From assembly GCF_001650715.1 (NCBI RefSeq), contig NZ_LWQT01000045.1, positions 1 through 64,000 of the forward strand: a DNA stretch of 64,000 nt, given 5' to 3'. The notes under the pieces were generated by a model. It worked only from the letters and a program-made list of their open reading frames with translations. It was not told the origin of the DNA and searched no databases. A program made the position numbers and the translations under genes. This DNA comes from Paramagnetospirillum marisnigri. Lineage in GTDB: Bacteria > Pseudomonadota > Alphaproteobacteria > Rhodospirillales > Magnetospirillaceae. Positions 14,775 to 31,415 of this stretch are shown here, one piece after another. Within the stretch, counting starts at the first letter, position 1; each line of letters begins with the position of its first letter.

Positions 14775-15632
14775 TCAGGCCGCCTTGCGATCCCGCAGAT
14801 AGGTCGCCAGCTTGCCGTCCTCGATCCGGATGTGGTTCTTCAGCCAGTTGGAGACGTATTCGAACATCTTCGCCACCGCGTCGGGCTTTCCGTCGCCGAT
14901 GGTTCCCCGCAGCTTGGCGAAGGTGTCGAGGAAGTCGCGGTGATGGCGGCGATGGGCGTCGATCTCGCCATAGCCGTGACGGTTCATCACCTCTTCCTCT
15001 TCCTTGAAATGGGCGGTGAGGACGTTGTCGACCATGTCGATCATGGACTGGGCGGCATGCTGGCCGCCGCCGCTCATCATCTCGGAATAGAGCCGGTTGA
15101 CCTCGGCGAACATCTCCTGGTGATGACGGTCGATAGCGGCGATGCCCATGTTGAGGGCATTGTCCCATTCCAGCAGCTTCATCTCGGATTTCTCGGCGCG
15201 GACCTGGGACAGGAACCGTCCCACTTCGGCCCGCAGATACTCGGCCTGGCGCGACAGGTCGCTGGCGGAGGTATGGATATGCTCGGCCGCGCCGCCGGTA
15301 TCACGGGCTGCCTGTTCCACCGCCACCACGCTGGAAGAGACCTCGGCGGTTCCCGCCGCCGCCTGTTCCACGTTGCGGGCGATTTCGGCCGTGGCCGCCG
15401 ACTGCTCCTGCACCGCCGAAGCCACCGACGAACTGATCTCGCCCATCTGGTTGATGACTTGCGAGATGGAGTCGATGGCTCGCACGGCATTGGAAGTGCC
15501 TTCCTGCACCGCGCGGATCTGGGCGGCAATCTCCTCGGTGGCCCTGCCCGTCTGGGTGGCGAGATGCTTGACCTCGTTGGCCACCACGGCAAAGCCCTTG
15601 CCGGCGTCACCGGCGCGCGCCGCCTCGATGGT
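14775..15632 (-). pseudogene. 3' half of an interrupted chemoreceptor with C-terminal hemerythrin domain
   Basis: The reading frame enters at the element border and encodes the last 284 residues of a chemoreceptor with no start of its own. It begins [20 protein letters not shown], the descending arm of the signalling hairpin, and continues through the methylation helix. It ends in a bacteriohemerythrin domain: [23 protein letters not shown], then [11 protein letters not shown]. Those are the di-iron ligands expected for oxygen binding (HxxxE, HxxxH, HxxxxD). The matching 5' half lies at 30,171-31,415 beyond the inserted element. Joined, the protein would be about 699 residues, comparable in design to DcrH-type oxygen-sensing chemoreceptors. 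An internal start at 15,587 could give a soluble fragment. Confidence 0.9.
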
Positions 15633-15654
15633 AGAGTTTTGTCCTATTAAACAA
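15609..15654. mobile_element. attL, left junction of the integrated element
   Basis: Bases up to 15,632 match the chemoreceptor coding sequence (through CTCGATGGT); from 15,633 the sequence is foreign and AT-rich. The arm at 15,636-15,654 (GTTTTGTCCTATTAAACAA) is the inverted counterpart of the right arm at 30,150-30,168, with 17 of 19 positions matching. The candidate crossover dinucleotide is GT at 15,631-15,632, three bases from the arm. Confidence 0.85.
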
Positions 15655-15723
15655 AAGATAAGACGCTGGATTATGCTCCACCCTCAGCATAAACTAAGGT
15701 TCCGCTTCGCTCGGACCGGAACC

Positions 15724-17346
15724 ATGGCTCTCGCATTTTCCTACCTGCGCATGTCGCGCCCGGAACAGATCAAAGGCGACTCGCTCCGGCGTCAGCTTGA
15801 GGCATCACGTGAGTATGCCATCAAGCACGGCCTGACCCTCAACGAAACCATGCAAGACATCGGCGTATCCGCCTTCCGAGGTAAGAACCGCACCGAGGGA
15901 ACGCTGGCGGCCTTTCTCGACCTGATCCGGGACGGCGACATTCCATCGGGATCGGTATTGCTGGTTGAGAACCTCGACCGGCTGTCACGGGAGCAGGTCT
16001 CCACCGCCCTGGCGCTGTTCCTGTCGATCATCGACGCCGGGGTTTCCATCGTCACCCTGTCGGACGGGCAAGTGTATTCCAAGGCGGAAGTGGATCGGGA
16101 TTTCACCAAGCTGCTGATGTCCATTGTCTACATGGCCCGCGCCCATGATGAGAGCGCCATGAAATCAGCGCGGCTGGTCGAGAGCTGGAAGGCTAAGCGG
16201 GCTCGGGCTCAAGCCGATCCAAGGGCGAAGCTCACAGGGTGCGTTCCCGGATGGCTGACGCTCAACAAGGCTCGGACGGAATTCCGGGTTCGGGAAGATC
16301 GGGCGGCGATTGTCTGCCGCCTCTTCGAGGAATGTGCTTCTGGAATCGGCAGCCGGATGAGTGCGCGGAGGCTGAACGATGAAAATGTCACTCCGTTCGG
16401 GCGGGCCAAGGGCTGGCGCAACACAAGCATCCGCCAGATCCTGACGAACGAGGCGGTGATAGGGCGGTTCCAGCCCGGCGTAATGAAGGATGGGGTGCGG
16501 GTTCCGGAAGGTCCGCCCATCGAGGGCTATTTCCCGGCCATTGTGCCCGAGGCTCTGTTCTTCCGCGCCCAGAAGGCGATGACCGGGCGGCGGAAAGGAT
16601 CGGCGGGGCAGGATCGAGGAACCTGTGCCAATTTGTTTCGCGGGCTTGTCAGATGCGCCTATTGCGGCGGCCCAATGTATTATCACACCAGCGGCGGCCT
16701 GCCCGAGGGGCAGGGCTGGCTGCAATGCGATATCGCCCGCCGCCGGGTTCGGAAAGATGGGGAACTCGTATGCTCCCACATCAAAACCTATCCTTATGAA
16801 ATGCTCGAAAGGCACGTCCTCGCCTGCTTGCCCGATATCGACATCAGCCAGATGCTCGATTTTGAAAATCAGGCGACCGCCGCCCTGCGAGAAGAGCATG
16901 GCCAAGTGGAGGCCCGGCTTGACTCCGCCTTGGCCAAGCAGAAGCGTCTGGTGGCGATGGCGGAGGAGGTCGAGCCCGGTGACGGTGACGAGGTTGACGA
17001 TGCCTTGGCTGGCCGAATCGCGGAATTGCGATCGGAAATCCGCTCACTACGAGCCCGCCGAAAGGAATTGGAGGGACGCCTTCAATCGACAGGGGCGGCA
17101 GTTGTGAACGGCGAGCATGAACTGATGATGGCCGCATTGGAGCACATGCAGCGCCTGGACGAGATCGACGACCGCTCGGAGCGCTACCGGGCCAGAGCCA
17201 GCTTCGCACAGGATCTGAAGCGGTTCATTGAGCGGATCGATATCAACGAAGCCTTTGCAGACGTCATTCCCCATGGCGGCGAGGGCATTGCCCTTATTCT
17301 CGATGCCAAGGCCTTCGCAGGAATGATGGAAGGGAATCAAGCGTAA
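15724..17346 (+). CDS. Large serine recombinase (site-specific integrase)
   Basis: A 540-residue recombinase. The N-terminal resolvase domain starts ALAFSYLRMSRPEQIKGDSL, with catalytic Ser11 and the downstream arginines of LVENLDRLSREQ. It is followed by the Recombinase domain (GWRNTSIRQILTNEAVIGRF), a zinc-ribbon domain (VRCAYCGGPMYY, with further cysteines in LQCDIARRR and CSHIK) and a C-terminal coiled coil. This architecture belongs to phiC31/Bxb1-type integrases that join attP and attB at a 2-bp core and need a directionality factor for excision. It is the first gene inside the left border, reading away from it, as expected. ATG 15,724 is chosen; an in-frame ATG at 15,673 is possible. 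No obvious directionality factor was identified. Confidence 0.95.
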   Translation: MALAFSYLRMSRPEQIKGDSLRRQLEASREYAIKHGLTLNETMQDIGVSAFRGKNRTEGTLAAFLDLIRDGDIPSGSVLLVENLDRLSREQVSTALALFLSIIDAGVSIVTLSDGQVYSKAEVDRDFTKLLMSIVYMARAHDESAMKSARLVESWKAKRARAQADPRAKLTGCVPGWLTLNKARTEFRVREDRAAIVCRLFEECASGIGSRMSARRLNDENVTPFGRAKGWRNTSIRQILTNEAVIGRFQPGVMKDGVRVPEGPPIEGYFPAIVPEALFFRAQKAMTGRRKGSAGQDRGTCANLFRGLVRCAYCGGPMYYHTSGGLPEGQGWLQCDIARRRVRKDGELVCSHIKTYPYEMLERHVLACLPDIDISQMLDFENQATAALREEHGQVEARLDSALAKQKRLVAMAEEVEPGDGDEVDDALAGRIAELRSEIRSLRARRKELEGRLQSTGAAVVNGEHELMMAALEHMQRLDEIDDRSERYRARASFAQDLKRFIERIDINEAFADVIPHGGEGIALILDAKAFAGMMEGNQA

Positions 17347-17703
17347 AGGGTGTTCTAAAGTGCTTGCTTGGGCTATCTGACCGCTATGCCCCGGCAACCG
17401 CCACTCGTCGGGAGCGTCCGATATGACCCTGTTGTGCCAAGATCCATCACTCGTACCTGTTATCCAGAGCGACTTAATTGGGCAGGAAGCAGATGTCATG
17501 TTAGTTATCGGCGATTTGGTTCGGGCCATGACGACGGCGACGGTCACGGAATTTCCAATCTGCTCGGAGCAGTGATTGGCATCACTCTCCAATTCCAAAA
17601 TGGAAGGTGGCTTGCCTCATTCCTGCCATGGTGTCGCGCTACGCTTTCCATCTTGACTGACGCGGGGCACATTCGCCTCTGTCTAACAATCCCGGAGGTT
17701 TCC
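17347..17703. other. Non-coding or unresolved stretch inside the element
   Basis: A small frame from ATG 17,423 to 17,575 (50 codons) lacks a convincing ribosome site and a recognisable product, so it is not called. The end of the segment has a clear CCCGGAGG ribosome site for the gene at 17,704. A promoter for that gene probably lies here, but no clear -35/-10 pair stands out. Confidence 0.5.
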
Positions 17704-18186
17704 ATGAGCCATAAGCTGTTCGGCACCGTTGCCCTTGCTGCCTTGATCGCTGCTGGATCGGCGTTTGCCGCCGATGCTCCGCCTGCCGCGTCTTCCGCAC
17801 CCGCTGCGGCCGCGGCAACAACTGCACCCACTACGCAAGCCACGCCTCCTGCCGCCAGTTCGACGCCTGCAGCCACGGCTGCCCCGACCCCGGCGCCGAC
17901 GGTGGTTCCTGCGCCGGTCGCCGCCGCGCCGGTCGCGACGCCCCCCGCCGTTGCCCCGGCTCCCATGACGGCCATGCCCGCCAAGACGGAGAAGCCACGT
18001 GTCTCCGCATGCACCCGCGCAATCCATTCGGCCGAGCATGCCCTGAAGATGTCCAAGGCCAAGCCGGAGGCCATTGCAGGTGCCTGGCAGCATATCCAGG
18101 CCGCAAAGCAGGCGCGGTCCAAGCACATGAGCGACGCCTGCAAGTCGGAAGCGGCCGCCGCCACCAAGATGTCCAACATGATGTAA
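17704..18186 (+). CDS. Secreted Ala/Pro/Thr-rich small protein
   Basis: A 160-residue predicted periplasmic protein. Residues 1-23 form a signal peptide (LFGTVALAALIAAGSAFAAD). A low-complexity Ala/Pro/Thr segment of about 75 residues follows, then a C-terminal helical, basic domain of about 60 residues (ACTRAIHSAEHALKMSKAKP...) with two cysteines and several His, Lys and Met. The ribosome site GGAGG is well placed. I do not recognise the family. The Pro/Ala linker suggests a tether between the membrane or wall and the small C-terminal domain. It is followed within 30 bases by a truncated channel gene fragment. Confidence 0.75.
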   Translation: MSHKLFGTVALAALIAAGSAFAADAPPAASSAPAAAAATTAPTTQATPPAASSTPAATAAPTPAPTVVPAPVAAAPVATPPAVAPAPMTAMPAKTEKPRVSACTRAIHSAEHALKMSKAKPEAIAGAWQHIQAAKQARSKHMSDACKSEAAAATKMSNMM

Positions 18187-18215
18187 TCATTTGGCAGGGG
18201 GGAGAGGAGATAAAA

Positions 18216-18359
18216 TTCTTTCCCCTCACCGGCGTGGTCATTGTCATGGAAATTACCGACAACCAGTCGCTGACCTTGCCCCTGATGGCGGTGGCTGTGA
18301 ACGCCTACGGCGTGTCATGGCTGGGGTGCCCCGCCCCCATGTACCACAACTCGTCTTAG
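18216..18359 (+). pseudogene. 3' remnant of a ClC-family chloride channel/antiporter gene
   Basis: The frame reads FFPLTGVVIVMEITDNQSLT then LPLMAVAVNAYGVSWLGCPA ending PMYHNSS. It resembles the last membrane segments of ClcA-type proteins, where the pattern [21 protein letters not shown] precedes a C-terminal PLY tail. Only the last 47 or so codons remain; homology stops at about 18,216, and no start or upstream channel helices are present. It probably marks a deletion breakpoint or past recombination within the element. An intact small gene from ATG 18,246 is unlikely. Confidence 0.6.
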
Positions 18360-18400
18360 GGTCAGGACCCATAAAATTCCTTTTATGGGTCCTGACCCTA
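18357..18400. repeat. Perfect 20-bp inverted repeat at the end of nhaD
   Basis: The arms 18,357-18,376 (TAGGGTCAGGACCCATAAAA) and 18,381-18,400 are exact reverse complements around TTCC. The right arm contains the nhaD stop codon and the left arm contains the stop of the channel remnant. The arm itself holds the smaller palindrome GGGTCAGGACCC apart from its centre. It could act as a bidirectional terminator or be a REP/IS-end relic; neither strand has a strong T-run. Confidence 0.8.
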
Positions 18401-19711
18401 GAACAGCGCCGCATTGATCAGCCGATGGGTGACGATGCTGGAGACATAGCCCGCCGCCACCGCCCAACTCCATTTCAGGTGTGAGCCGAAGGTATAGACA
18501 CCGCGCGCCTGCCCCATCAGCGCTACACCGGCAGCGGAACCGATGGACAGCAGCGAGCCGCCGACGCCGGTCGTCAGGGTGATCAGCAGCCACTGGCCCA
18601 AGGACATGTCGGGCTGCATGGTCAGCACCGCGAACATCAGCGGGATATTGTCGAGGATGGCCGACAGCACGCCGATGATGACATTGGCGCTGGTGGCGCC
18701 CAACTGACCGTAAAGCAGGTTGGACATCACCGACAGATAGCCCAGCACCCCCAAGGCCCCCACGCACATCATCACGCCATAGAAGAACAGCAGGGTGTCC
18801 CACTCCACACGGGCGATCTTACGGAACACATCAAAGGGGTTTTCGGTGGACGCTCCCCGGCGGCCATGGGTTTTCATCAGGACATAGCCCAGCAGCAGCA
18901 GATAGCCCAGCCCGGTCATCATGCCGATCACGGGGGGCAGATGCAGATAATTATGGAAGCAAATGGCGGTAACGATGGTCAGGGCGAACAGGACCAGGAC
19001 GCCCCAGGCTCCGGGCTTGAGCTTCACCACATCGTCGCTGGCCTCCGGCTTGCCGCCGGGCAGAGCCAGATGCATCAGGGCGGCAGGCACAACGAAGTTG
19101 ACCACCGACGGCAGGAACAGTCGAAAGAAGTCGTTGAACTGGACCATACCCTTTTGCCAGACCATCAAGGTGGTGATGTCGCCGAACGGGCTGAAGGCAC
19201 CGCCAGCATTGGCGGCAACCACGATATTGACGCAGGCCATGGCGACGAAACGGGGAGAATCCTTGCCGACCGCCAGAACCACCGCGCACATGACCAGGGC
19301 GGTGGTCAAATTGTCGGCCACCGGCGAGATGAAGAAGGCCAAGGTTCCGGTCAGCCAGAACAAGGCGCGGTAGCCAAAGCCTGAGCGGACCAGCCAGGCC
19401 CGAAGCGCATCGAACACCCGGCGTTCCTCCAGGGAGTTCACATAGGTCATGGCGGCCAGCAGGAACAGCATCAGCTCGGCATATTCGAGGAAGACGTGGC
19501 GGATGGGTGCCTCAAGGGCGTGCGGCAGGCCCTGGGCGTTGTAGACCAAGGCAATCATGATCCACAGGATACCCGCCGCCACGACCACCGGAATGGATTT
19601 GCGCAGATGGGTGGTTTCCTCGGTGATGACCAGGGCATAGGCGAAAACGAACACCGCCACGGCGGCAAGTCCGACCCAATGGCCGGTCAGATCGGGCAGG
19701 TTCTCGGTCAA
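18398..19711 (-). CDS. NhaD-type sodium/proton antiporter
   Basis: A 437-residue integral membrane protein of the ion transporter superfamily with about eleven hydrophobic segments. Key stretches match NhaD: FISPVADNLTTALVMCAVVL and ANAGGAFSPFGDITTLMVW in the first half, and SAILDNIPLMFAVLTMQPD plus GVGGSLLSIGSAAGVALMG in the second. Such transporters export Na+ or Li+ in exchange for protons at the inner membrane. It is the last gene of the element's stress operon, starting in a four-base overlap with the diguanylate cyclase stop. A second, divergent relative lies at 56,157-57,410. Confidence 0.88.
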   Translation of the reverse strand: MTENLPDLTGHWVGLAAVAVFVFAYALVITEETTHLRKSIPVVVAAGILWIMIALVYNAQGLPHALEAPIRHVFLEYAELMLFLLAAMTYVNSLEERRVFDALRAWLVRSGFGYRALFWLTGTLAFFISPVADNLTTALVMCAVVLAVGKDSPRFVAMACVNIVVAANAGGAFSPFGDITTLMVWQKGMVQFNDFFRLFLPSVVNFVVPAALMHLALPGGKPEASDDVVKLKPGAWGVLVLFALTIVTAICFHNYLHLPPVIGMMTGLGYLLLLGYVLMKTHGRRGASTENPFDVFRKIARVEWDTLLFFYGVMMCVGALGVLGYLSVMSNLLYGQLGATSANVIIGVLSAILDNIPLMFAVLTMQPDMSLGQWLLITLTTGVGGSLLSIGSAAGVALMGQARGVYTFGSHLKWSWAVAAGYVSSIVTHRLINAALF

Positions 19712-20547
19712 ATGCTGTCTCCCTCGGTGGCGGTCAGGACCACCCTGTTACGGCCGTCTCGCTTGGCTTGATACAGGGCCTCATCGGCAAGTTTCAGGGC
19801 CTCATCCACGGTATGGGTGCCAACAACGGCACCGATGCTAACGGTCACGGACAAGGATTGCTCTTCCCAATCCAACCTGCTCAGTTCCACGGCGGCACGG
19901 ATACGTTCAGCGGCGATCAATGCACCTTTTTGCGCTGTTTCCGGCATCAGCACGGCGAATTCCTCGCCACCCATGCGCCCAAATACATCAACCTGCCGCA
20001 AACACCGCCCCACCACGGTGACAAACAGCCTAATGACTTCGTCGCCCGTGTCATGGCCGTGGCGGTCGTTGACCTGCTTGAAGTGATCGATGTCGAGCAT
20101 CATCACGGTCATGGGATGGCCATATCGCTTGGCCGATTCCGTCAGTGCCCGGCCCCGTTCCAGAAAAGCGCGGCGGTTGAGAATTCCCGTCAAGGGATCA
20201 GTGGTGGCCAGAACTTCCAATTGCCGCTCGAATTCCGCCCGTTCAACGGCATAGCGGCCAAACACCTCGAACCACAGAGCGATGACCGCGCTGGCAATTG
20301 CGGACAGCCAAGCCGAGGGAATGATCGGGACATTATGGTGCCAGACCACATTGTCGAAGGCATCGAACAGGCTGGTCAGGCCGAGGCCGAGCAAGGTCGC
20401 TATGCCACTCAACATCATGAGGAGGCGGCCATTCCTTGCCCGGCATCGGACAGCACAAGTCCCGAGACGAACGGTGACCACGAAGGCGGTCAGGGCCACC
20501 GCTACGGTCAGCACACCATAGGCATATCCAGCCCATGGCAGCGGCAT
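19708..20547 (-). CDS. Membrane-anchored diguanylate cyclase (GGDEF)
   Basis: A 279-residue protein with three hydrophobic segments (residues about 8-28, 42-62 and 75-95) followed by a GGDEF domain. The active-site loop is GGEEF and an RxxD inhibitory site (RQVD) lies five residues before it, so the domain looks catalytically competent and product-inhibited. LTGILNRRAF and DIDHFKQVNDRHGHDTGD are typical substrate and metal motifs. It makes cyclic di-GMP. The ATG overlaps the upstream stop as TGATG. Its place between trehalose genes and a Na+ antiporter suggests that stress response and sessile behaviour are linked, which is inference. Confidence 0.92.
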   Translation of the reverse strand: MPLPWAGYAYGVLTVAVALTAFVVTVRLGTCAVRCRARNGRLLMMLSGIATLLGLGLTSLFDAFDNVVWHHNVPIIPSAWLSAIASAVIALWFEVFGRYAVERAEFERQLEVLATTDPLTGILNRRAFLERGRALTESAKRYGHPMTVMMLDIDHFKQVNDRHGHDTGDEVIRLFVTVVGRCLRQVDVFGRMGGEEFAVLMPETAQKGALIAAERIRAAVELSRLDWEEQSLSVTVSIGAVVGTHTVDEALKLADEALYQAKRDGRNRVVLTATEGDSI

Positions 20548-22331
20548 CAGAACGCCTCCTCCCAGTTTCGCGACAGCCGCATGGCGCAATTGATCAGCCC
20601 GACCATGGAATAGGTCTGGGGGAAATTGCCCCACAATTCGCCGCTGCGCGGGTCGATATCCTCGGACAGCAGGCCCAGTGGATTGCGCCGCGCCAGCACG
20701 GTCTCGAACAGGGTTCTGGCTTCGTCACGCCGCCCCAGCGCCGCCAGGGCGTCGATATACCAGAAAACACAGATGACGAAGGCGGTGGACGGTCGTCCGA
20801 AATCGTCCTCGGCCACGTAGCGATAGAGGAAGTCGCCTGTCTTCAGATTGGCGGCTACCGCATCCACCGTGGCGGCGAAGCGGGGATCATCGGCGGGGAG
20901 GAAATCCACTTCGTGGAGCAGCAGCAGGGTGGCATCCAACTCAGCCCCGCCGAAGGTGGAGGCGAAGCAACCCAGTTCCACATTCCAAGCCCGCTCGCAG
21001 ATGATGGAGTGCAGCCGGTCGGATTCCTTGCGCCAGTAGATGGCGCGGTCGGTCTGGCCGATGTGGCGGGCGATTTTGGCCAGACGGTCACAGGCGGCCC
21101 AGCACATGACCGAGGAAAAGGTGTGGACCGAGGCGATGGTGCGCAATTCCCACGGCCCGGCATCAGGCTTGTCGAAAACGGTGACGGCGCGATTGCCCTG
21201 GCGCTCCAACTGCTCGAACAGTGGCGCACTACCGGGATGGGAAAGCCGCTGGTCGAAGAAGGCATGGGTCGAGGCCAGCACCACGCTGCCATAGACGTCG
21301 TTCTGGATCTGGACATGGGCCTGGTTGCCCACCCGAACCGGGCCGAAGCCGTGATATCCGGCCAAATGGGGAATGGTGACCTCGTCGATGGAGGTATCGC
21401 GGGTGATGCCGTAGACCGGGCGCAACTCGCCGTCCTTGGCTTCCTCGACGATGTCGTTGATGAAGCGCAGATAGTCTTCCATGGTCCGGGTGACGCCGAG
21501 ACGGTTCAGGGCATGAATGACGAAATAGGCGTCGCGCAGCCAGCAGAAGCGGTAATCCCAATTGCGCTGGGTCTCCGGCGCTTCCGGGATGGAGGTGGTC
21601 AGTGCCGCGACAATGGCACCGGTTTCCTCGAAATTGCACAGCTTCAGGGTGATGGCGGCGCGGATTACCGCGTCTTGCCATTCGAACGGGATCGACAGCG
21701 AGCGGACCCAACTGCGCCAATGGTCCAGGGTCCGCTCGAACAGGTCGCGCGCCGTGGTTTCCACCCCGGCCTGCAGGCTTTCGTCGCTGCCCAGCAGGAG
21801 GTCGATGGGACGGTCGAGGACAAAGGGCCGTTCCTCGGTGATATAGGACACTGGAGCGTTGGTGGTTAGGCGCAGGGTCTGGGCGGGCGAGACATAGCGA
21901 AGATGGTTGCTGCCTCGGGTGACCTGGGGCTTCAGTCCACCGTTCTCAAAGCCGGGCCGCAGCCGCACCAGCACGCGCGGGCGTCCCTGTACTGCCCTGA
22001 TCCGCCGGACGATCATGGGGGGGCGGAAGATGCGTTCATAAAGGGCGAAGCGCGGCGCGAAGTCGGTGACCTCGGCAATCCCGCCATGATGGTCATAAAG
22101 CGTGGTGCGCAGGATCGCCGAGTTGGGCAGATAGGCCTGTTCCGAATGAAGCTGATCGACCAGTTCGATGGAAAACATGCCATCGGCTTTCTGGTCATTG
22201 AGCAGGGCATGGAACACCGCGTCGCCGTCAATGCGGGGAAAGCACCCCCAGACGATGGTGGCCTGGGCATCCACCAAGGCGGCGATGCTGCAATTGCCGA
22301 TGATGCCGAGGTCAAGGCTGTGCATGTCCAT
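20547..22331 (-). CDS. Glycoside hydrolase family 15 protein (glucoamylase or trehalase)
   Basis: A 594-residue cytosolic enzyme. The N-terminal region (LGIIGNCSIAALVDAQATIV, then WGCFPRIDGDAVF) matches the trehalase-like N-terminal domain. The catalytic alpha/alpha toroid shows WDYRFCWLRDAYF near residues 258-270 and ends in a region with ELGCFA and GELWGNFPQTYSMVG. GH15 members cleave alpha-glucosidic bonds with inversion; several bacterial ones with this N-terminal domain are trehalases rather than glucoamylases. The position next to otsB and otsA makes trehalose turnover likely, but activity cannot be read from sequence. It overlaps otsB by 20 bases. Confidence 0.88.
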   Translation of the reverse strand: MDMHSLDLGIIGNCSIAALVDAQATIVWGCFPRIDGDAVFHALLNDQKADGMFSIELVDQLHSEQAYLPNSAILRTTLYDHHGGIAEVTDFAPRFALYERIFRPPMIVRRIRAVQGRPRVLVRLRPGFENGGLKPQVTRGSNHLRYVSPAQTLRLTTNAPVSYITEERPFVLDRPIDLLLGSDESLQAGVETTARDLFERTLDHWRSWVRSLSIPFEWQDAVIRAAITLKLCNFEETGAIVAALTTSIPEAPETQRNWDYRFCWLRDAYFVIHALNRLGVTRTMEDYLRFINDIVEEAKDGELRPVYGITRDTSIDEVTIPHLAGYHGFGPVRVGNQAHVQIQNDVYGSVVLASTHAFFDQRLSHPGSAPLFEQLERQGNRAVTVFDKPDAGPWELRTIASVHTFSSVMCWAACDRLAKIARHIGQTDRAIYWRKESDRLHSIICERAWNVELGCFASTFGGAELDATLLLLHEVDFLPADDPRFAATVDAVAANLKTGDFLYRYVAEDDFGRPSTAFVICVFWYIDALAALGRRDEARTLFETVLARRNPLGLLSEDIDPRSGELWGNFPQTYSMVGLINCAMRLSRNWEEAF

Positions 22332-23076
22332 TGCCTCCTTGCAAAGCGATATTCAGGCCATCGAGCCAGTGGCGGAGGGATTCCGGATCAGGAAAGCGGA
22401 ACTGTGCCTTGGTCGTCGGGCTATTCCCCACATGGATGGAAAGCCCGTACATGCGATTGACGGCGGCGAAGCCGCTCTCGTCGGTCACGTCGTCTCCAGC
22501 GAAAACCGGCCGTCGCCCCGCATACGGGCGAACCTGCATGAAGCGCTCGATGGCGGAGCCTTTTCCGACCCCGGCGGGAATGATCTCGATCACCGATTTT
22601 CCCTCCAGCAGGTCGAAGCGGCGCGGATCCGTCGCGACGGCGGCCTCGGCCACGTCCCAGACGGCGGCTTCCTGCTCGGGAGCGGCGCGGAAATGCAGGG
22701 CAAGGGACACGCTTTTGCGCTCCAGCATGACGCCTGGAAGCCTGCGCCTGGCGGCCTCGATCCCGGCGAGGAGACCATCGGGCCAGGGCGGCTGGGGGAT
22801 GAACGTCTGGCCACCGAGCCGCCATTCCGCTCCGTGGCAACCCACCGCATCGCGATTGCCGGGAAAAAGGCTGTCGATACTGTCGAGAGAACGGCCACTG
22901 ACCAGCGCCAAGGCTCCACCAAATCTCCGTGTCAGGGCATCCAGCAAGGTCAACAAATCCTTGGGCACCACCACATCGCCGGGCGTTGACGCGAGGTCGA
23001 GCAAGGTGCCGTCGATGTCCAGGAACAGCGCCCAGGCGGCATGATCAACCGGGGGCAGGATTTCGGTCTGCATCAT
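22312..23076 (-). CDS. otsB: Trehalose-6-phosphate phosphatase
   Basis: A 254-residue HAD-superfamily phosphatase that removes phosphate from trehalose-6-phosphate. Motif I is LFLDIDGTLLDL near residue 18, motif II is LALVSGRSLDSID, and the acidic motif IV is PVFAGDDVTDESGF. GVGKGSAIERFM supplies the conserved lysine. The length is typical for bacterial OtsB. Its ATG overlaps the otsA stop by four bases. Neighbouring otsA makes the substrate, so the pair forms a complete trehalose pathway from UDP-glucose and glucose-6-phosphate. Confidence 0.95.
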   Translation of the reverse strand: MMQTEILPPVDHAAWALFLDIDGTLLDLASTPGDVVVPKDLLTLLDALTRRFGGALALVSGRSLDSIDSLFPGNRDAVGCHGAEWRLGGQTFIPQPPWPDGLLAGIEAARRRLPGVMLERKSVSLALHFRAAPEQEAAVWDVAEAAVATDPRRFDLLEGKSVIEIIPAGVGKGSAIERFMQVRPYAGRRPVFAGDDVTDESGFAAVNRMYGLSIHVGNSPTTKAQFRFPDPESLRHWLDGLNIALQGGNGHAQP

Positions 23077-25313
23077 GTGCCTCCCGTCGTGATGGCACGG
23101 CGCGTCACTGCGGCGATGCGATGTTCGATATTGTGGCGCTTGCGCATGCGGGCGGCATCCAGCAGCATCCGTCCCGCCCAGAAGTAGATGTTGTTCTCGC
23201 CCACCATCTCGCGCATCAATCTCATCCGCTCTTGCCGCTGCTCGGCCGGCATGGACAGGCCCATATGCAGCGCCTCGCCCATGGCCCGGACGTCATAGGG
23301 ATTGACGATCAATGCTTCGCGCAATTCACGCGAGGCCCCGGCGAAGGTGGACAGCACCAGCACGCCGTCGTCGTCGTCCCTGGCGGCGACGAACTCCTTG
23401 GCCACCAGATTCATGCCGTCGTGCAGACTGGACACCAGACAGACGTCGGCGGCACGGAACAGGGTAAAGACCTCCTCGGGCTCGTGATGCCTTGGCACCA
23501 GAATGATCGGCAGCCAGCCCTCGCGGCCGAAGCATTTATTGACGGCTTCAGCCGCTTTTTCAGCCTCGTCCTGGGTCTCGCGATAGGCGGAAAGGCGCGA
23601 ACGGGTTGGGGCAGCGATCTGAAGCAGGGTAAAACGGCCGATCCACTCGGGATGGGCTTCCAGCAGGCTTCCCACCGCATGGAAGCGGTCGGCGATGCCC
23701 TTGGTGTAATCGAACCGCTCGACCCCCACGGCAAGCATGGTGTCACGGCCAATGCCGAATCCCTTTCGGACACTTTTCCGGCATTCCTCCACCGGAGGCT
23801 GGACGCTCAGGGCGGCGGGCGGCCATTCAATGGAGATGGGATAGGGACGGACCTGGGTGGTGCATCCGCCGGCGCTGATGGTGCTGTGCTCGCGGTCGAT
23901 ATGGCACTCAAGGAAGCGGTCCACGGAATCCAGGAAGTTGTTGCAGTGGAACTGGGTGTGGAAGCCCAGGATGGATGAGCCCAGCAGACCCGAGAGTATC
24001 TCCTCCTTCCACGGACAGATGCTGAAGACCTCGGGGTTTGGCCAAGGAATATGCCAGAAGGTGATGATGGTCGCCTCGGGCAGCCGCTCGCGCACCATCT
24101 TGGGCAGCAAGGCGAAGTGGTAGTCCTGGACCAGAACCACCGGGTTGGGTGTCTTGGCCTCGGCAACCACCGCATCGGCGAATTTCTGGTTGACCGCGAC
24201 ATAGTGCTCCCAATCCGAGGCGCGGAAAGTGGGGCGGACGAAGGCGATATGGCAAAGCGGCCACATCCCCTCATTGGCAAAGCCGTAGTAGTAGCCGTCC
24301 TGCTCCTCATCTGTCAGCCATAGGCGGCGAAGGGTATAAGCAGGCGCATCCGGCGGCACAAGAAGGTGGTCATGCTCATCCACCATGGTCTGATCGGCCG
24401 AGCCGCTGCCATGGGCGATCCAGGTGCCGCCGCAGGCTCGCATGATCGGCTCCAACGCCGTTACCAAACCACTGGCCGGACGCTGCAAGACCACCTTGCC
24501 GTCCTCAAGATTATGGATGTAGGGCTCGCGGTTGGAGATCACCATCACCTCGGCACCGGGCAATTCATTGCGCAGCACACTTCGCAGGCTGTCGGGACTC
24601 CAATCGACGCGGATGGCTTCGCTCAGGACGCGGGGCGTATCCAGATCCCGCAGCATCTTGCGCATTTCTTGAACCAAGGGAGCGACATCGGGCGACATGG
24701 CGGCGTCATCCTTCGCATCCGCTTGGCCCGACAGCCCCTTGCGGATCGCTTTAACCCAGCCGCGCAGGGTCAGGCGGGCGACCACGACAGTCACGCCAGC
24801 CGCCCCCAATCCCAGCAGGGCGAGAAAGCCGGCGAGATAGAGTTCGGCGCTGTCGCTGCGGCGTTCGATGAAGCGCAGATCATGGAGTATGACCAGACGG
24901 CCCAGATAGGTATTGTCGGCGGCCAGGGCGAAAGTGGCGACCAGGACCGGTCCGCCGTCAATATGTTCGACGGCGAAGGCATGATCCAAAACAGGCGCCG
25001 GAGGACACGCCAACCCCTTCGGCCACGCCACGGAATGCTGGGTCAATTGGCCGTCGGGCGTGCACAGCGCCAGGGCCAGCAGACGCTCGTCCTGGGTGAT
25101 GTGCTTGAACAGGGCGTCGATCTTGCGGTCGGCCTTGGTAAGGACCAAGCCGTTGACCGTTTCCTGGATGGAGTTGAACACCAACTGCGAGCGCATCTCC
25201 ACATCGGCCCGGAACCAGCGTTCCACCAACGAGCCGACCAGCGGCGCTCCACCCCAGGCTATACCGCCCAGCACCAGGAGAAGGGGGAGGACGAACCGGA
25301 TTGCCATTCGCAT
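23073..25313 (-). CDS. otsA: Membrane-anchored trehalose-6-phosphate synthase
   Basis: A 746-residue protein with an unusual N-terminal half. There is a transmembrane helix at residues 5-27, an extracytoplasmic domain of about 130 residues, and a second helix at about 157-180. A linker follows, then a complete GT20 domain from about residue 255 ([14 protein letters not shown]). Within that domain [33 protein letters not shown] and [13 protein letters not shown] are the donor- and acceptor-binding motifs of OtsA. Standard OtsA is a soluble protein of about 470 residues, so the front part is an added sensor-like module. GAGGAG seven bases before ATG 25,313 supports the start. It lies between the periplasmic-protein gene (12-base gap) and otsB. 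Confidence 0.92.
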
Positions 25314-25325
25314 GGACTGTCTCCT

Positions 25326-25937
25326 CTATTGCCCTGCGGTGGGGCATATGCCATCGGGACAGGGAGTCACCTCCGTCACCGCGCGCAATTCCCATAGGCT
25401 GCCCTGGGTCTTGTTCAGTTGCTCCCAACGCGAGGGGGCCAAGGTCAGGGCGCCGGTAAGGCGAACCCGTTCTCCAACCAAGGGGATGGGCGCGCCATCT
25501 GCATCCACCCGACCTTCCACCATTCTGGCTGGTACCGTCGCCACAACAGCGTGACGAATGCTAAAGCGCCCTTTCAGGAAGGACGGCTTCTTGGGCAGCA
25601 ATCGGAGCTGGTAGCTTCGCTCGACCGGGGCTCCGCATCGCGACACTGATGGCCTGACGGCAATTGCGCGGACGAGATATCCCTCGGTAACGATAACAGA
25701 GCCCTCAACCTTTGGGTTGGGTTTGTTCGGCAGAGCTTGAACATCCTTCAGCGACATGGCGCGGGGTTGAGCACCCGATTGGGGGGCAGTCGGCTGAGGG
25801 CAGGCGGTTTCTTTCGCCAATGCTTCCCCGGCCACCATCATCACCGAGATGGCCAGTGCGCTCATGGCGATGTGCCTTACGCCCCGGCGACCCGCCACTC
25901 GGTTCCCCAACCACACCGTCATGAATTCTGGCCACAT
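25326..25937 (-). CDS. Predicted periplasmic protein of unknown function, first gene of the stress operon
   Basis: A 203-residue protein with a signal peptide ending near GEALA (residues 20-40). The mature part starts KETACPQPTAPQSG, followed by a region that looks all-beta: VEGSVIVTEGYLVRAI, RFSIRHAVVATV and PLVGERVRLTGALTL. Three or four cysteines are present, including two in TPCPDGICP at the C-terminus. I do not recognise a named family; the alternating beta pattern could be an OB-like fold. GGAGGG before ATG 25,937 selects that start. It stands twelve bases upstream of otsA and may interact with the extracytoplasmic domain of OtsA. Confidence 0.75.
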   Translation of the reverse strand: MWPEFMTVWLGNRVAGRRGVRHIAMSALAISVMMVAGEALAKETACPQPTAPQSGAQPRAMSLKDVQALPNKPNPKVEGSVIVTEGYLVRAIAVRPSVSRCGAPVERSYQLRLLPKKPSFLKGRFSIRHAVVATVPARMVEGRVDADGAPIPLVGERVRLTGALTLAPSRWEQLNKTQGSLWELRAVTEVTPCPDGICPTAGQ

Positions 25938-26348
25938 GACGCCCTCCATTGCGGTGGAGGCATGACGAAAATCGATTGGGTCGGGGTGCCGAGCTGACGG
26001 AGCGTCGGCACCGGCCGCATCAGCCCGTGCCCTCTTCGTATTCCAATGGCTTTCCGGATGGTCCTGGCTGCCCAAAAGCATGCCCGCCTCCTTCGATCAA
26101 TTTTTCAAAACATCAATATTTGAATTATCGATTGTGGCGAGATGATGGTGAGGCTAGGATTCCGGCAGCCATAAAGGCGATTCGCAAAAGGTCAGTTTTG
26201 AAGAAGTGGCTTGGACTTCCTTCAGGCCGGCTTGGGTCGGGGTCCATGCATCGGCGAAAGACCTGGCATCCGACGCCTTTGGGTCACGAAGTGCTGATGG
26301 ACCGAAACCCGTTGGATGGCCGGATTTTATGAAAGCGGCCATCTGCCG
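25938..26348. other. Promoter region of the element's stress operon
   Basis: The only gap upstream of the six-gene minus-strand operon, so its promoter should be here. An AT-rich tract occurs at 26,096-26,135 (TTTTTCAAAACATCAATATT), about 160-200 bases before the first start. A 62-codon frame on the minus strand (26,154-26,342) has no recognisable product or good ribosome site and is not called. Confidence 0.5.
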
Positions 26349-27764
26349 CTATCTTTCCCGCCCCCGCTCCCTTTCCGGCTCCGTCATGGCGACGTCCTGG
26401 ATGGTTAGCAGTGTGTCACGGAGCCAACGAACTGCCTGCCGGTGACGCTGATGGAGGGGGACGCCACCATGGAGGCGGATCCAGGCACCGATTCCTTCGG
26501 ACACTAGACGAGACGGATTGACCAGAATCGAAGCATGCCCCAGAAGCTTGGCCCCCACTTCCATCAGGTACAGCATGCGCTTGCGCGCCCGGGTCACCAT
26601 GGCAGCCTGCCAACCGCCAAACTCCTGCAATTCGTCAGCATATTCGGCAAGCTGACGTTCGTACTTGGCCCATTCTTCGTCGCCCTTGCCATTGCGCAAG
26701 GCTTCCACGGCGCGCGTGTCACACTGCCATGACTCAAATTCCTGGCGAAGACCACGGCGCTCAAGGAATGTCCCAAGATCCTTCTTTTGCGCCGTGACAA
26801 TATCGCGCTGGGCTTCCAAATCAGCGAGGATAACCAAGTGTTTTTGGACCGCTTCCTCGCCCCGGACGCGCACCTCTTGGGCCGCGGCTTCGGCGGCCTG
26901 CGCCTTGGCGTGTGACACGACCGCCTCCTGTTCGGCGGTCTTGGCGGTAAGCGCGGCCATCTCGGCGGCATGTCGTAGAGCCTTCATCTTGGCCTCCTCC
27001 ATAAGGGCAATGTTCCGAGCGTGATGAGCCTCCACCTGTCTCTCGACGGCGGCGGCTTCGTGTTCCTTGATCCTGGCGTAGAATTCGCGGATGGGCTGAT
27101 GGTGAGCCCGGCTGTGACGCTGGCCTCGGATCAGCCCGAGCGGCTCCATGACAACGGCATAGCGATCCTGACGAGCCGCGAACGCTTCCTTGCCGCTTCC
27201 CATGATTTTGTCATGGTTGAGAGTCCATCCGGTAGCGGTGGCGGCCTTCGTCCCGTCCTTACGGGGACGGCCCCGCCCCTTCTTTTGCACCTCGACAGCG
27301 GTGGCGCACCAGACATGGGCGTGACAAACGGATTCGTCATGGTGGATGACGACGGTGACCAGATTGTCACCGAATTCAGCACGAAGAAAATCCAGAGTCA
27401 CCGACCGCCACGTCGCCAGCCGATCAGGGTCGCAATCACCGTCACGCCCGGAATGGCCATTGTCGGCGAAATATGTGCTGGAGGCCGTGAGGAGCAGTTC
27501 CCGAGCCACCACTTGACCGGGCTTTGGTTCCAGTCCGACGGCGGCAAGGCGGGTCCGAACATCCTTCACCACGTCGCCGCTGCCGACCAGCACCTCGTTC
27601 AGCGGGGAACGATCCGGGTCGATGTTGGCGCCCAGCCATGGCGCATCCCGCATGGTGTGCTGGGCGGCTTGGCGCAGTTCCCCCCAGGTGTGGCTCTTTC
27701 GTCCATGCCGCAAGATGCAAAATGGCCCCCTATCGCCGTCGTTGTCATTTGCCGCTATTGCCAT
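26349..27764 (-). CDS. MobV/Pre-family relaxase (plasmid mobilization enzyme)
   Basis: A 471-residue protein. The N-terminal 200 residues resemble Pre/Mob relaxases: FCILRHGRKSHTWGELRQAA at the start, VARELLLTASSTYF, then NLVTVVIHHDESVCHAHVWC, which supplies the histidine cluster of the metal site. The C-terminal half is a long coiled coil rich in Ala, Glu and Gln (about residues 245-390) and a basic tail. Such enzymes nick at oriT and pilot single-stranded DNA. GGGGGAA before ATG 27,764 supports the start. The oriT is usually just upstream of the gene, where a hairpin cluster is seen. Long plus-strand frames across this gene are shadows. Confidence 0.85.
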   Translation of the reverse strand: MAIAANDNDGDRGPFCILRHGRKSHTWGELRQAAQHTMRDAPWLGANIDPDRSPLNEVLVGSGDVVKDVRTRLAAVGLEPKPGQVVARELLLTASSTYFADNGHSGRDGDCDPDRLATWRSVTLDFLRAEFGDNLVTVVIHHDESVCHAHVWCATAVEVQKKGRGRPRKDGTKAATATGWTLNHDKIMGSGKEAFAARQDRYAVVMEPLGLIRGQRHSRAHHQPIREFYARIKEHEAAAVERQVEAHHARNIALMEEAKMKALRHAAEMAALTAKTAEQEAVVSHAKAQAAEAAAQEVRVRGEEAVQKHLVILADLEAQRDIVTAQKKDLGTFLERRGLRQEFESWQCDTRAVEALRNGKGDEEWAKYERQLAEYADELQEFGGWQAAMVTRARKRMLYLMEVGAKLLGHASILVNPSRLVSEGIGAWIRLHGGVPLHQRHRQAVRWLRDTLLTIQDVAMTEPERERGRER

Positions 27765-28218
27765 GGCTTCCCCCGTAAAATCTCCCCCGCCGTCGACATC
27801 GGGCGAAAAATAAAACCGGCAAGGGGAAAAATGCAGCTCGCCTAAAAGGCGGCACCTACGCCGTCGGGTTTCCCGTTGGGAAAGCCGACCTGTAGGCAAG
27901 GGCGCTGCCCTTAACCCGAAGTGTAAAATCGTGCTGACCGAAACATCCGATTCGTCGGCGCGAAGGCGATGACAAAGCGGCATCGCCGGCCAAAGCCGTG
28001 ATGCCCAGCCAGTGCCGACGGGGTGCCGACGCCCTGCTGACGCCGCCAAATCGGCCCGAGAGGCGCGGATTTCCTGGGGGTCGCGGGCATTGTGCCGACG
28101 CTGACGCCGGGGTCGCCACGGAGCCGAAAACAAATTGCCGAATCCACTTGATGGCCGCCGACGGGGGCCTAGGTCAACGAAAGCGGACGACGGTGTCCGC
28201 CCCATCAGGAGACCCGCC
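27765..28218. promoter_or_regulatory. Candidate oriT/replication-control region between divergent mob and P-loop genes
   Basis: A long imperfect hairpin lies at 27,855-27,896: arms CCTAC...GTCGG...TTTCCC and their complement, joined by a three-base loop. A small hairpin, GGGCGCTGCCC, follows at 27,900-27,910. Further on the 9-mer GTGCCGACG occurs three times (28,012, 28,023 and 28,092), with related CTGACGCC copies between and after. Position next to a MobV gene suggests oriT; the repeats could be iteron-like binding sites. No coding sequence is supported here. Confidence 0.5.
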
Positions 28219-29517
28219 ATGCCCAAGCCCACCCGCCCTAAACGCCCCAAGACACCGCCCATCGATCCGCGACAGATGGATCTGCTCGACTTCATCGCCG
28301 CAGGCAAGCTGAACGGCGAGCGGGGTGAGACCCTGCGCGGCCTGATGGCCGCCAAGCCTGATCCGCGCAGCTGGCGCGGCACGACCATGGTTCCGCCCGG
28401 CACCCTGTTGGACCGGGTGGTGGCCCTGTTCCAGCGGACCACGGACTTCCCGCTGGAGCTGCCGGCCTTCCTTGTGCTCCACGCGTTGGCGGCCTATCTG
28501 CTGGAGCGCGAGGTTGTGATCGAGGTGGCCGGAACCAGGCTGAAGCCGGATCTGTGGTCCACCCTGCTCGCGTCCAGCGGGGCGGGCAAGACCAAGACCG
28601 CTTCGGTGCTGAAGCGGGTGATGCCCATGCGGCTGTTTCCCGAAACCACCTCGGCGGCACGCTGGATCGAGGAGATGGAGACCCATAACAAGTGCCTGTG
28701 GCTTCAGGACGAATGGGCGCAGCTCCTCAAGCGCATAGAAAGCCAGACCTGGGCGGAGGAGATGCGGGGCTACCTTCTCACCCTTCACGACAATCAGGAG
28801 ATGTCGCGACGGACAAAGACAGGGTCGCTGGTCATCGAGGATCCGGCCTTGGTCATCTTCGGCACGACGGTTCTGGAGACCTTCAACCAGAACGTCTCGG
28901 TCGAGTCCATGCTGGATGGCTTCATGCAGCGATTCGGCATCATTATCGGTGATGCCGATCCGAAGCGCACGCCCGACATGTTCCCCATCTACCGGGTGGA
29001 GGAGCCGGGCAACCTCGCCCCGCTGCATACCGCCTGGGAGGCGATCGCCGCCGTGCCGCTGCACCGGACCTATACGGTGACGCCGGAGGCCGAAGCGGAA
29101 TTCGAGGCCGGTTTCCGCAATCATTTCCAGCAGCACAATTCAATCCCCCCATCGTTCTTTAGGCGCGTCCTTTGGCGGGGGTTCAAGCTTGCGGTGGTCT
29201 ACCACGTCATGCTGGGCAAGGCTGACGCCGACATCGACGCCGAGGACATGGGCTGGGCCATGCGAGTGGCGCTGCTGCACCTGACCGATGCTCGCCGACT
29301 ACTGGACGGGTATCACCTCACCGAGTTGGAGGACATCGTGGTCAAGGCCGAAGCCTACCAGGCGAAGATCGGCCGGCGGCCGAGCAAGCGGGAGCTGATA
29401 TCCCGGGTGCGGGGAATTCGCAACAATGCCATGGCAGAGTTCGTGCTGGAGTTGATGTCACCGCTGCCGGGGGCCAATGACAACACGGGCCCGACCGATG
29501 ACAAGGTCGCCGCATGA
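28219..29517 (+). CDS. P-loop protein of DUF3987 type (replication/primase-helicase-like)
   Basis: A 432-residue protein. A Walker A-like loop (LLASSGAGKTKTASVLKRVM) lies near residues 115-135 and a candidate Walker B in KCLWLQDEWAQLL near 160. VIFGTTVLETFNQ and MQRFGIIIGDADPK follow as in DUF3987 ATPases found on plasmids and phages, often with replication genes. AGGAG eight bases before ATG 28,219 supports the start. It diverges from the relaxase and is translationally coupled (ATGA) to the HIRAN gene. A role in replication or processing of the excised element is inference. Confidence 0.7.
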   Translation: MPKPTRPKRPKTPPIDPRQMDLLDFIAAGKLNGERGETLRGLMAAKPDPRSWRGTTMVPPGTLLDRVVALFQRTTDFPLELPAFLVLHALAAYLLEREVVIEVAGTRLKPDLWSTLLASSGAGKTKTASVLKRVMPMRLFPETTSAARWIEEMETHNKCLWLQDEWAQLLKRIESQTWAEEMRGYLLTLHDNQEMSRRTKTGSLVIEDPALVIFGTTVLETFNQNVSVESMLDGFMQRFGIIIGDADPKRTPDMFPIYRVEEPGNLAPLHTAWEAIAAVPLHRTYTVTPEAEAEFEAGFRNHFQQHNSIPPSFFRRVLWRGFKLAVVYHVMLGKADADIDAEDMGWAMRVALLHLTDARRLLDGYHLTELEDIVVKAEAYQAKIGRRPSKRELISRVRGIRNNAMAEFVLELMSPLPGANDNTGPTDDKVAA

Positions 29518-29927
29518 GCGGCCATGACAAGCTGGCGCGGATCAGCGCCATCGTTGACGGCAAGGATTGGCGGGCGGCGAACAGGCCGCCCCTGAGCTAC
29601 CGCGGCCGAGTTGCAGGAGCCTACTTCTATGATGGAGCATTTGACTGGTCGCAGCAGACCGCCCGCCAGGGCGCAAGACAGGGCGATGTGCTGGCCGCGA
29701 TCAGAGAGCCCGACAATCCCTATGACCGCCACGCCATCGCCTTGTGGACCTTTGACGCCCAGGTCGGCCATGTTCCGGCGAACGTGGCCTGTGACTTGGC
29801 CCCCCTGATGGACGCAGGACACCCTCTCTGGGTCCAGGTATGGCGCGAGGCGATCACGGATGAGCCGTCCAATATCGAGATTGTCTATTTCGGTCCCGCC
29901 ATTGATGAATGGCGCGACCGGCAATGA
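29514..29927 (+). CDS. HIRAN-domain protein
   Basis: A 137-residue protein. The core matches a stand-alone HIRAN domain: VAGAYFYDG, then VLAAIREPDNPYDRHAIALW and VGHVPANVACDLAPLMDAG. HIRAN domains bind DNA 3' ends or damaged forks in HLTF and related proteins; small stand-alone versions are frequent in mobile elements. It overlaps the previous stop by four bases, so the two likely work together on element DNA. It is the last gene before the right border; positions 29,928-30,104 hold no gene. Confidence 0.85.
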   Translation: MSGHDKLARISAIVDGKDWRAANRPPLSYRGRVAGAYFYDGAFDWSQQTARQGARQGDVLAAIREPDNPYDRHAIALWTFDAQVGHVPANVACDLAPLMDAGHPLWVQVWREAITDEPSNIEIVYFGPAIDEWRDRQ

Positions 29928-30104
29928 CGGCGCCGGTGATTCGGGATGGCAACCGTCTGGAAGATGCCGCCCATCCCCATCCAGGCCCGTAGCAGGGGGG
30001 GCGTATGACCGGTTCGGCACGGAGCACTCCATTGAGCGCATTGCCGCTCGGGTGGTCTCCTAGCGGTGAACGACCGAGCGGGTGCGTTCAGCGGCACAGT
30101 ATCA

Positions 30105-31415
30105 TCAGGCTGCGAGGGAAAGCGGTGTCCTACACGGCGAAGATTGTACTTGTTTAATAGAACGAAACTTGGTGGCGTTGAGCGCCAGCAGATTGGTCTG
30201 GGCGGCGATATCGTTGATCAGGTTGACCACTTCGCCGATCTTGGCCGCGTTCTCGGACAGGGCACGGACCTGATCGGTGGTGGACTGAGCCTCCTGTTCC
30301 GCGCGCGCGGCCACCGACTGCGAGCGTTCGACCTGGCGGGCGATCTCGCTGATGGAGGAGGACAGTTCCTCGGTGGCCGCCGCCACCGTCTCCACATTGG
30401 CCGAAGCCTGCTGCGAGGCCGAGGCGACGGTGCTGGCCTGGGCGCTGGTCTCCGACGCGGTTCCGGCCATCTGGCTGGAAGACGCCTGCAATTCGGTCGC
30501 CGCCGAGGTCACGGTCTCGATCACCTTGCCGACGCTGTCCTCGAAGGTGCTGGCCAGTTGGCGCAAGGCCGCCTTGCGCTCGGCTTCGGATCGGGCCTTC
30601 TGCGCCTCCTGCTCACCCTCCAGCTGCTTGACCCGGACAAGCTGGTTCTTGAAGTGCTCCACCGCCTTGGCCATCAGTCCGATTTCGTCACGACGGTCGG
30701 CATGGGGAACCTGGACGGGCAGATTGTTGGCGGCCAGATCGCCCATCACCCGGGTCATGGCGTTCACCGGCTTGGTAATGGAGCCCCCCACCAGCCAGGC
30801 GATCAACAAGCCCAGCACCACCGCCGCCGCCATGGCAATACGGGTGTACAGTTCCGCCTGATGGCTGACGGCCTCGGCGTTCTTCATGAAGGCCTCGGCT
30901 TTATCAAAGGAAAAGGCGATGACCTTGGTCAGGGTGGCGTTGACCTGGGCCACCTGATTGGCGCCCAGGGTCTTGGTGATGGTGGCGGCATCCTCGCGGC
31001 GGCCGTCGCGAATGGCGGCGATCACCTGATCGCGGATCGGCTTCCAGTCGGCGAAGGCCTTGGCGGCCGCCTCGACGTCGCTCTTGTCACCGAGGAAGCG
31101 TTCGCGAACCAGGGCGAACTTCTCGTAGACCTTCTTCTCGCGGGCATCCACGTCGGCCACCGCCTTGACCAGTTCCTCCGGATTGGAGGCCAGGGCCACA
31201 TCCTTCATGGACCGGTGCATGGCGACGATATTGGTGTTCGCCTCCTGCAAGGCATTGGTGACCGTGAAGGGGTGGCGGTAGAGCTTGACGGTAAGCTCGG
31301 TCAGACGGTCGTCGGTGGCGTCGCCCAGCAGCCCGATTCCCAGGGTCAGCACCAAGATCAAGGCAAAACCGACATAGAGGCGGGCGGAGATCTTGAGATT
31401 GGACAGCAGCGACAT
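30105..31415 (-). pseudogene. 5' half of the interrupted chemoreceptor (membrane and ligand domains)
   Basis: The first 415 residues are genuine receptor: a transmembrane helix (YVGFALILVLTLGIGLLGD), a four-helix-bundle periplasmic domain with NTNIVAMHRSMKDVALA, a second membrane helix (IAMAAAVVLGLLIAWLVGG), a HAMP domain, and the ascending arm of the signalling domain up to [12 protein letters not shown]. From there 21 residues are encoded by the element (KFRSIKQVQSSPCRTPLSLA, then A) before a stop. The product lacks the hairpin tip's return arm and the hemerythrin, so it should not signal normally. GGGGGAGG before ATG 31,415 gives the start. A 16-bp palindrome lies 131 bases upstream. Confidence 0.9.
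30150..30195. mobile_element. attR, right junction of the integrated element
   Basis: Bases 30,150-30,168 (TTGTTTAATAGAACGAAAC) are the inverted partner of the left arm. Chemoreceptor sequence resumes at 30,170 (TGGTGGCGTTGAGCGCC). The shared core is TGGT (30,170-30,173), with GT at 30,172-30,173 exactly three bases from the arm, mirroring the left side. Confidence 0.85.

Follow-up and report, generated by a model that had tools for sequence, protein, structure and literature searches.

In the window analyzed here, the 64,000 nucleotides at positions 1 to 64,000 of contig NZ_LWQT01000045.1 of Paramagnetospirillum marisnigri, a chemoreceptor gene of the methyl-accepting chemotaxis protein (MCP) family on the minus strand is cut in two by an element of 14,541 bp (one core copy counted). 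Comparison with related insertions makes it very likely that this is an integrative mobilizable element whose integrase recognizes a hairpin shared by most MCPs, an abundant and redundant target. The receptor split in the window carries a hemerythrin domain, and its oxygen-sensor nature looks incidental.

The sequence TGGT occurs at position 15629 and again at position 30170, a spacing of 14,541 bp. At the right border, the N-terminal 415 codons of the receptor (30171..31415, minus strand; ATG at 31415-31413) encode the 4HB_MCP_1 and HAMP domains and the first third of the signalling domain, ending in the residues LLALNAT. At the left border, the C-terminal 284 codons (416 to 699) and the stop codon at 14775 (14775..15629, minus strand) encode the remaining signalling domain and the hemerythrin domain. 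Joining the flanks minus one core copy affords a 699-codon frame with no internal stops, from the ATG at 31415 to the stop at 14775, in which Pfam recognizes 4HB_MCP_1, HAMP, MCPsignal, and Hemerythrin; the insertion divides MCPsignal into model positions 4-56 and 58-166 of 172. The preliminary description of this DNA had reported a hemerythrin chemoreceptor split into 415 and 284 residues by a 14.5-kb element, as the frame and the Pfam matches bear out, and its statement that excision through a GT core would give an uninterrupted 699-residue frame also holds at the level of the sequence. The 40 residues of the joined hairpin, from INDIAAQ to VKHLA, are identical to those of an intact homologue in another Magnetospirillum genome (L002). 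The intact homologues L002 to L004, which are 66-67% identical to the joined receptor over ~697 residues, provide natural uninterrupted sites, though from other species. The C-terminal half has no ATG, GTG, or TTG start in its short in-frame extension inside the element.

A 20-base pattern from the left end of the element (15640-15659) was searched for in 317 genomes of the order, with the reversed pattern as the control. At ≤2 mismatches, 10 matches were obtained versus 3 for the control: one in the window's own genome (G000; 4,619,819 bp, 131 contigs), one in G117, one in a Telmatospirillum metagenome-assembled genome (MAG) (G124), six in the uncultured Magnetospirillum MAG VK2_bin-0414 (G015), and one with 2 mismatches in G254, which has no MCP motif within 500 nt. 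All nine mismatch-free left ends, spread over four genomes and three genera, interrupt an MCP gene, each at the identical dinucleotide; the C-terminal half is in frame in every case and scores above the Pfam MCPsignal cut-off. The target genes are nine different ones, since the C-terminal halves are 36-67% identical to one another. Hemerythrin is present in the C-terminal half of the window's receptor only and PilZ in that of one other; the remaining seven end after the signalling domain. The six left ends of G015 fall into three sequence types, each found in two MCPs. Five of their contigs stop 80-131 bases after the start of the pattern, and the sixth has the pattern at bases 92-111 from its first base, as expected from assembly breaks at a repeat.

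The attachment sites were deduced from the cores, the symmetry of the joined ends, and the related insertions. The attL core TGGT is at 15629..15632 and the attR core TGGT at 30170..30173, with deduced crossover GT dinucleotides at 15631-15632 and 30172-30173, respectively; on the coding strand, this GT reads AC and lies in the Thr codon of LNAT. The left attP arm (15633..15660) contains the 20-base pattern common to the nine insertions, and the right arm (30144..30169), delimited by attP symmetry and pattern search, is inverted relative to it. The deduced attP, obtained by joining the element ends, is a near-palindrome matching at 19 of 30 half-site positions and centred on the GT inside TGGTAG; the next-best centre matches at 13 of 30. 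In G015, one left end reads AATCGTAAAG and one right end CACTGTGGCG, with only the GT in common, although these ends are unpaired and perhaps belong to separate insertions; more than one right end of this MAG reads CTGTGGCG, again sharing only the GT with the left end AATCGTAAAG. The symmetry centred on the GT and the G015 ends that share nothing else support a crossover at this dinucleotide. The sites and the GT core, as deduced by comparison, would correspond to the directional attP × attB recombination with a 2-bp crossover that is characteristic of large serine recombinases.

Candidate targets are numerous. The genome of P. marisnigri has 49 MCPsignal matches, 47 of them above the cut-off, including the two halves of the split gene. 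It contains 42 attB-like places at ≤3 mismatches (control, 0), of which 37 have the GT core and 13 are identical to the window's 29-mer. MCPsignal matches number 65 in G015, 74 in G117, and 59 in G124. For M. gryphiswaldense, passages of an aerotaxis study mention more than 50 MCP genes and two hemerythrin MCPs among those deleted (PMC12442639). The host has two more MCP-hemerythrin receptors in open 880-codon frames that are identical over all 880 residues. They lie 28.7 kb apart (G000:C98:165500-170500, L101, and 194200-199200, L102) and perhaps stem from a duplication.

Integrase relatives at E values up to 1e-60 were found in 5 of the 317 genomes, the window's own included, and a scan of a species-level genome collection detected five integrase loci (two G015 contigs, G124, the Rhodospirillaceae MAG G016, and L030). 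The three MCP-inserting integrases form one clade with a support of 99/100. They were compared to 10 relatives not inserted in MCPs, namely, a second copy in G000, G016, G220, and seven found by searching 385 genomes sampled at class level. Eight of these 10 (3/3 from the order search and 5/7 from the class search) lie beside part of a comM gene (Pfam Mg_chelatase/ChlI) that is interrupted in its Walker A region. The comM element of the window's own genome and the MCP element have relaxases that are 92% identical, HIRAN proteins that are 89% identical, and integrases that are 63% identical. The simplest account of this comparison would be that elements with a common backbone changed target as their integrase was exchanged or diverged. 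The comM-type target gave one strong match per genome looked at, and its coding-strand core looks, by eye, like TG, not AC. The window and G124 integrases are 96% identical over only 142 residues, and the C-terminal halves of their target receptors are 51% identical.

In G000, contig ends at C55:278571-280169 (L026, L080) and C66:1-10500 (L089) seem to hold the two borders of the comM element. L030, from Rhodospirillaceae bacterium SYSU D60014 (10001-10205), is a remnant of the start of a related integrase with stops and frameshifts, and no MCP or comM half was recognized nearby. Backbone exchange with another element type is suggested by L088 (G015:C197), where a DUF3987 gene and part of the same relaxase have in their vicinity a weak match to a tyrosine recombinase (Pfam, 25.8 bits; cut-off, 27.1). 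A phage or plasmid origin of the close relatives was considered and rejected, as no integrase relative of at least 60% identity was found in 50,697 phage and 72,556 plasmid records at the E values used, a collection from which records near the window's genome may be left out. Viral contigs gave neither exact arm matches nor confirmed relatives.

We propose that attB is the DNA encoding a conserved segment at the hairpin tip of MCP signalling domains, with the crossover at the AC within its Thr codon. As this segment is present in the majority of MCPs of these bacteria, a single attB specificity would provide tens of equivalent and individually dispensable landing sites per genome. The element family would split whichever receptor it meets, here a hemerythrin receptor. 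Each insertion would inactivate one receptor, excision with the help of a directionality factor would restore it, and receptor redundancy would make the target safe. The target of the integrase would perhaps have moved from comM to MCPs.

Several observations weigh against this proposal or limit it. The right-arm pattern is weak alone, with 7 matches at ≤3 mismatches versus 5 for the reversed control. Three of these are mismatch-free and four have 3 mismatches; among the latter, the one in G015 C179 is at an MCP site, and those in G045, G291, and G316 were taken as chance, as no MCP motif occurs within 500 nt. The G015, G117, and G124 assemblies are fragmented, and the six insertions in one MAG may stem from several strains. 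Both borders are on one contig in the window only, the left and right ends being unpaired elsewhere. G117 has no integrase relative at E values up to 1e-60. For two integrase relatives, neither an MCP nor a comM target was recognized, one flanking gene reading as an acetyltransferase in G480 and as an M24 peptidase in G378. The integrase tree is well supported at only 2 of its 10 inner branches and was rooted for drawing only; since it has no true root, the direction from comM to MCPs is not established.

The insertion might also be a dead remnant, past excising, in which the receptor is a slowly decaying pseudogene. From residue 200 onward, 272 sites are invariant in eight homologues, and the split receptor departs from them at 25, versus 0-9 such changes at 247-256 sites for each homologue (the far more divergent L015 was left out). 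It also forms the second-longest of ten terminal branches in a tree of the signalling domain, and a broken integrase relative, L030, exists elsewhere. Against decay, nothing is missing from the integrase frame, the att arms, or either receptor half, an integrase that is 96% identical over 142 residues is present in another genus, and the changes in the receptor are mostly conservative (E/D, I/V, S/T), as in a merely divergent receptor. With regard to inactivating mutations, which the preliminary description had expected to be absent, stops and frameshifts were indeed found in neither half, whereas changes at conserved sites that are unique to the split receptor were found. Because these changes are mostly conservative and the branch is long, the comparison is indecisive between divergence and relaxed selection, and decay is neither shown nor excluded by it. 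On balance, we regard a dead remnant as unlikely.

The preliminary description had gone further and proposed that integration and excision toggle an aerotaxis input. Excision triggered by oxygen or salt would then turn the receptor on, in the manner of active lysogeny or of the skin elements in sigK. The exact restoration of the frame that excision would achieve is compatible with such a regulated switch, as are the lack of stops in both halves, the conservation of what we take to be the hemerythrin ligand pattern, and a cargo that looks osmotic-stress related. There is also a precedent in Clostridioides difficile sigK, where such a switch is run by a large serine recombinase with a directionality factor (PMC5025042). 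Several results speak against it: the nine receptors that share this left end are all different, eight of them with no hemerythrin domain in the C-terminal half; the host retains the two open MCP-hemerythrin receptors and 37 other sites with the GT core; no directionality factor or regulator was recognized among the small open reading frames listed from five intergenic stretches; and unique changes at conserved sites are more numerous in the split receptor than in any of its homologues. The diversity of the targets disfavors the switch, which we consider very improbable, and the nine different target receptors rule out oxygen-specific targeting as a general rule. Finally, a single chance insertion with no preference for MCPs would account for the window locus itself and nothing beyond it, and can be practically dismissed, given that every one of the nine mismatch-free left ends, from four genomes and three genera, falls on the same base within an MCP gene.

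The right end of the element also encodes an in-frame tail of 21 residues on the truncated receptor (KFRSIKQVQSSPCRTPLSLAA, then a stop; 30105..30170, minus strand). Each truncated receptor for which a right end was found gains 21 element-encoded residues ending in SLAA, SVAA, or SIAA, followed by a stop. These right ends are that of the window and three in G015 with two different tails, one shared by C22 and C155 and the other in C179. The ending [LVI]AA is present in 3/3 distinct MCP tails versus 0/6 comM N-terminal stumps read, and the tags of transfer-messenger RNA (tmRNA) in these genomes end in LAAAA, FAAAA, or LAA. The three tails are homologous DNA. Tests against a mutational null gave p values of 0.14, 0.50, and 0.006 for the three pairs; since this test was weak and two of the sequences stay alike past the stop, coding selection on the tail was not demonstrated. 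It is conceivable, if distinctly doubtful, that the elements form a chemoreceptor-silencing family in which the S[LVI]AA tail would act as an SsrA-like ClpXP degron that clears the membrane-bound stump and spares the receptor arrays, and in which several copies within a genome could recombine and so reassort sensor and signalling halves. The likeness of the tail to SsrA is speculative. Integration-dependent immunity of mycobacteriophages, in which the phage repressor loses a tag upon integration, likewise brings together an attachment site and an SsrA-like tag; the element of the window would instead add a tag-like tail to a host protein. As a separate observation, the Telmatospirillum MAG has two tmRNA genes (L084 and L086; G124:C115 and C319) with the tags ANDNFVALAA and ANDNVACTENVLLAA, maybe owing to contamination or to a mobile tmRNA.

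The integrase is a large serine recombinase of 540 residues (15724..17346, plus strand) in which the Resolvase catalytic, Recombinase, and zinc ribbon domains (PF00239, PF07508, and PF13408) are all matched above the Pfam cut-off. The backbone genes encode a MobV-like relaxase (26349..27764, minus strand; PF01076 [Mob_Pre] above the cut-off at 42 bits, NCBIfam MobV at 73 bits below the cut-off of 100), a DUF3987 protein (28219..29517, plus strand), and a HIRAN-domain protein (29514..29927, plus strand). A Pfam scan of 12 proteins of the element, small open reading frames excluded, recognized no transfer (type IV secretion) gene. The combination of a relaxase with no detected transfer genes indicates that this is probably an integrative mobilizable element, in keeping with the mobilizable element of the preliminary description. 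Elements with a serine integrase and a MobV-type relaxase are a known class, from which the present one differs by its target site and its trehalose/NhaD cargo.

Next to the integrase lies a gene for an Ala/Pro-rich protein of 160 residues with a start that resembles a signal peptide by eye and no Pfam family (17704..18186, plus strand). The cargo, all on the minus strand, comprises genes for an NhaD-type Na+/H+ antiporter (18398..19711; NCBIfam NF038006, 575 bits), a GGDEF diguanylate cyclase (19708..20634; Pfam), a trehalase-like GH15 hydrolase (20547..22331; Pfam and NCBIfam), an OtsB-like trehalose-6-phosphate phosphatase (22312..23076; Pfam and NCBIfam), an OtsA-like glycosyltransferase of family 20 with an N-terminal extension (23073..25313; PF00982, with TIGR02400 at 415.9 bits below the cut-off of 564.85), and a protein with no assigned function and no family in Pfam or NCBIfam (25326..26081). 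The antiporter, the OtsA- and OtsB-like enzymes, and the trehalase-like hydrolase (18398-25313) possibly constitute an osmotic-stress module in a freshwater host. A different cargo is found in G015 contig 176 (L027), which starts in the integrase and encodes an MCP built of dCache, HAMP, MCPsignal, and Hemerythrin domains, two phytochrome-type histidine kinases, and a haem oxygenase, a light- and oxygen-sensing set, followed by a piece of the relaxase. Besides splitting chemoreceptors, the element family can thus bring one along as cargo; this receptor is unbroken and keeps a GT-core hairpin.

Gene-interrupting elements include the phiSa3 prophage in hlb. As in active lysogeny and the skin element in sigK (PMC5025042), the frame of the split gene would return on excision; in contrast to these systems, of which programmed excision is a feature, the target gene of the present family is not fixed. 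Durrant et al. (2022) describe large serine recombinases of a multi-targeting type, in which close orthologues of one recombinase enter many different target genes; the type is defined by recombinases at 90% identity and target genes in different 50% clusters (PMC10083194). The targets found for the present family differ in belonging to one protein family and in being cut at one codon in a long conserved coding motif, and DUF4368, which is common but not obligatory in the multi-targeting clade, is absent among the Pfam matches of the window's integrase. According to the same main text, homologues of one magnesium chelatase gene are the targets of 12.4% of the site-specific integrases in that study (PMC10083194). 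The comM-targeting integrases, the nearest other relatives, partly share backbone genes with the MCP element and likewise cut a conserved coding motif; they differ in having one strong site per genome, a TG-like core, and, for the six stumps, no AA-ending tail. The main text of PMC10083194, supplement apart, nowhere uses the word "chemotaxis." In the open-licence literature, as judged by titles and the beginnings of abstracts, we found no report of MCP hairpins as integration sites and no paper combining "serine recombinase," "methyl-accepting chemotaxis," and "attB."

What appears unusual is the predicted specificity of an integrase for a hairpin common to chemoreceptors, together with an assembly in which six such receptors seem to be split. 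A mobile element would thereby use, as a multi-copy landing pad, the best-conserved part of a large family of paralogous genes, and the assembly with six apparently split chemoreceptors would allow receptor redundancy to be examined as a natural experiment. The recombinase is predicted to have a long, defined attB that is present in dozens of copies in chemotactic bacteria, and it may be a useful tool. The host is a cultured isolate, so that these questions are open to testing. For the biology of the family, the finding calls for caution, in that the function of such an element is not to be read from the receptor that happens to be cut.

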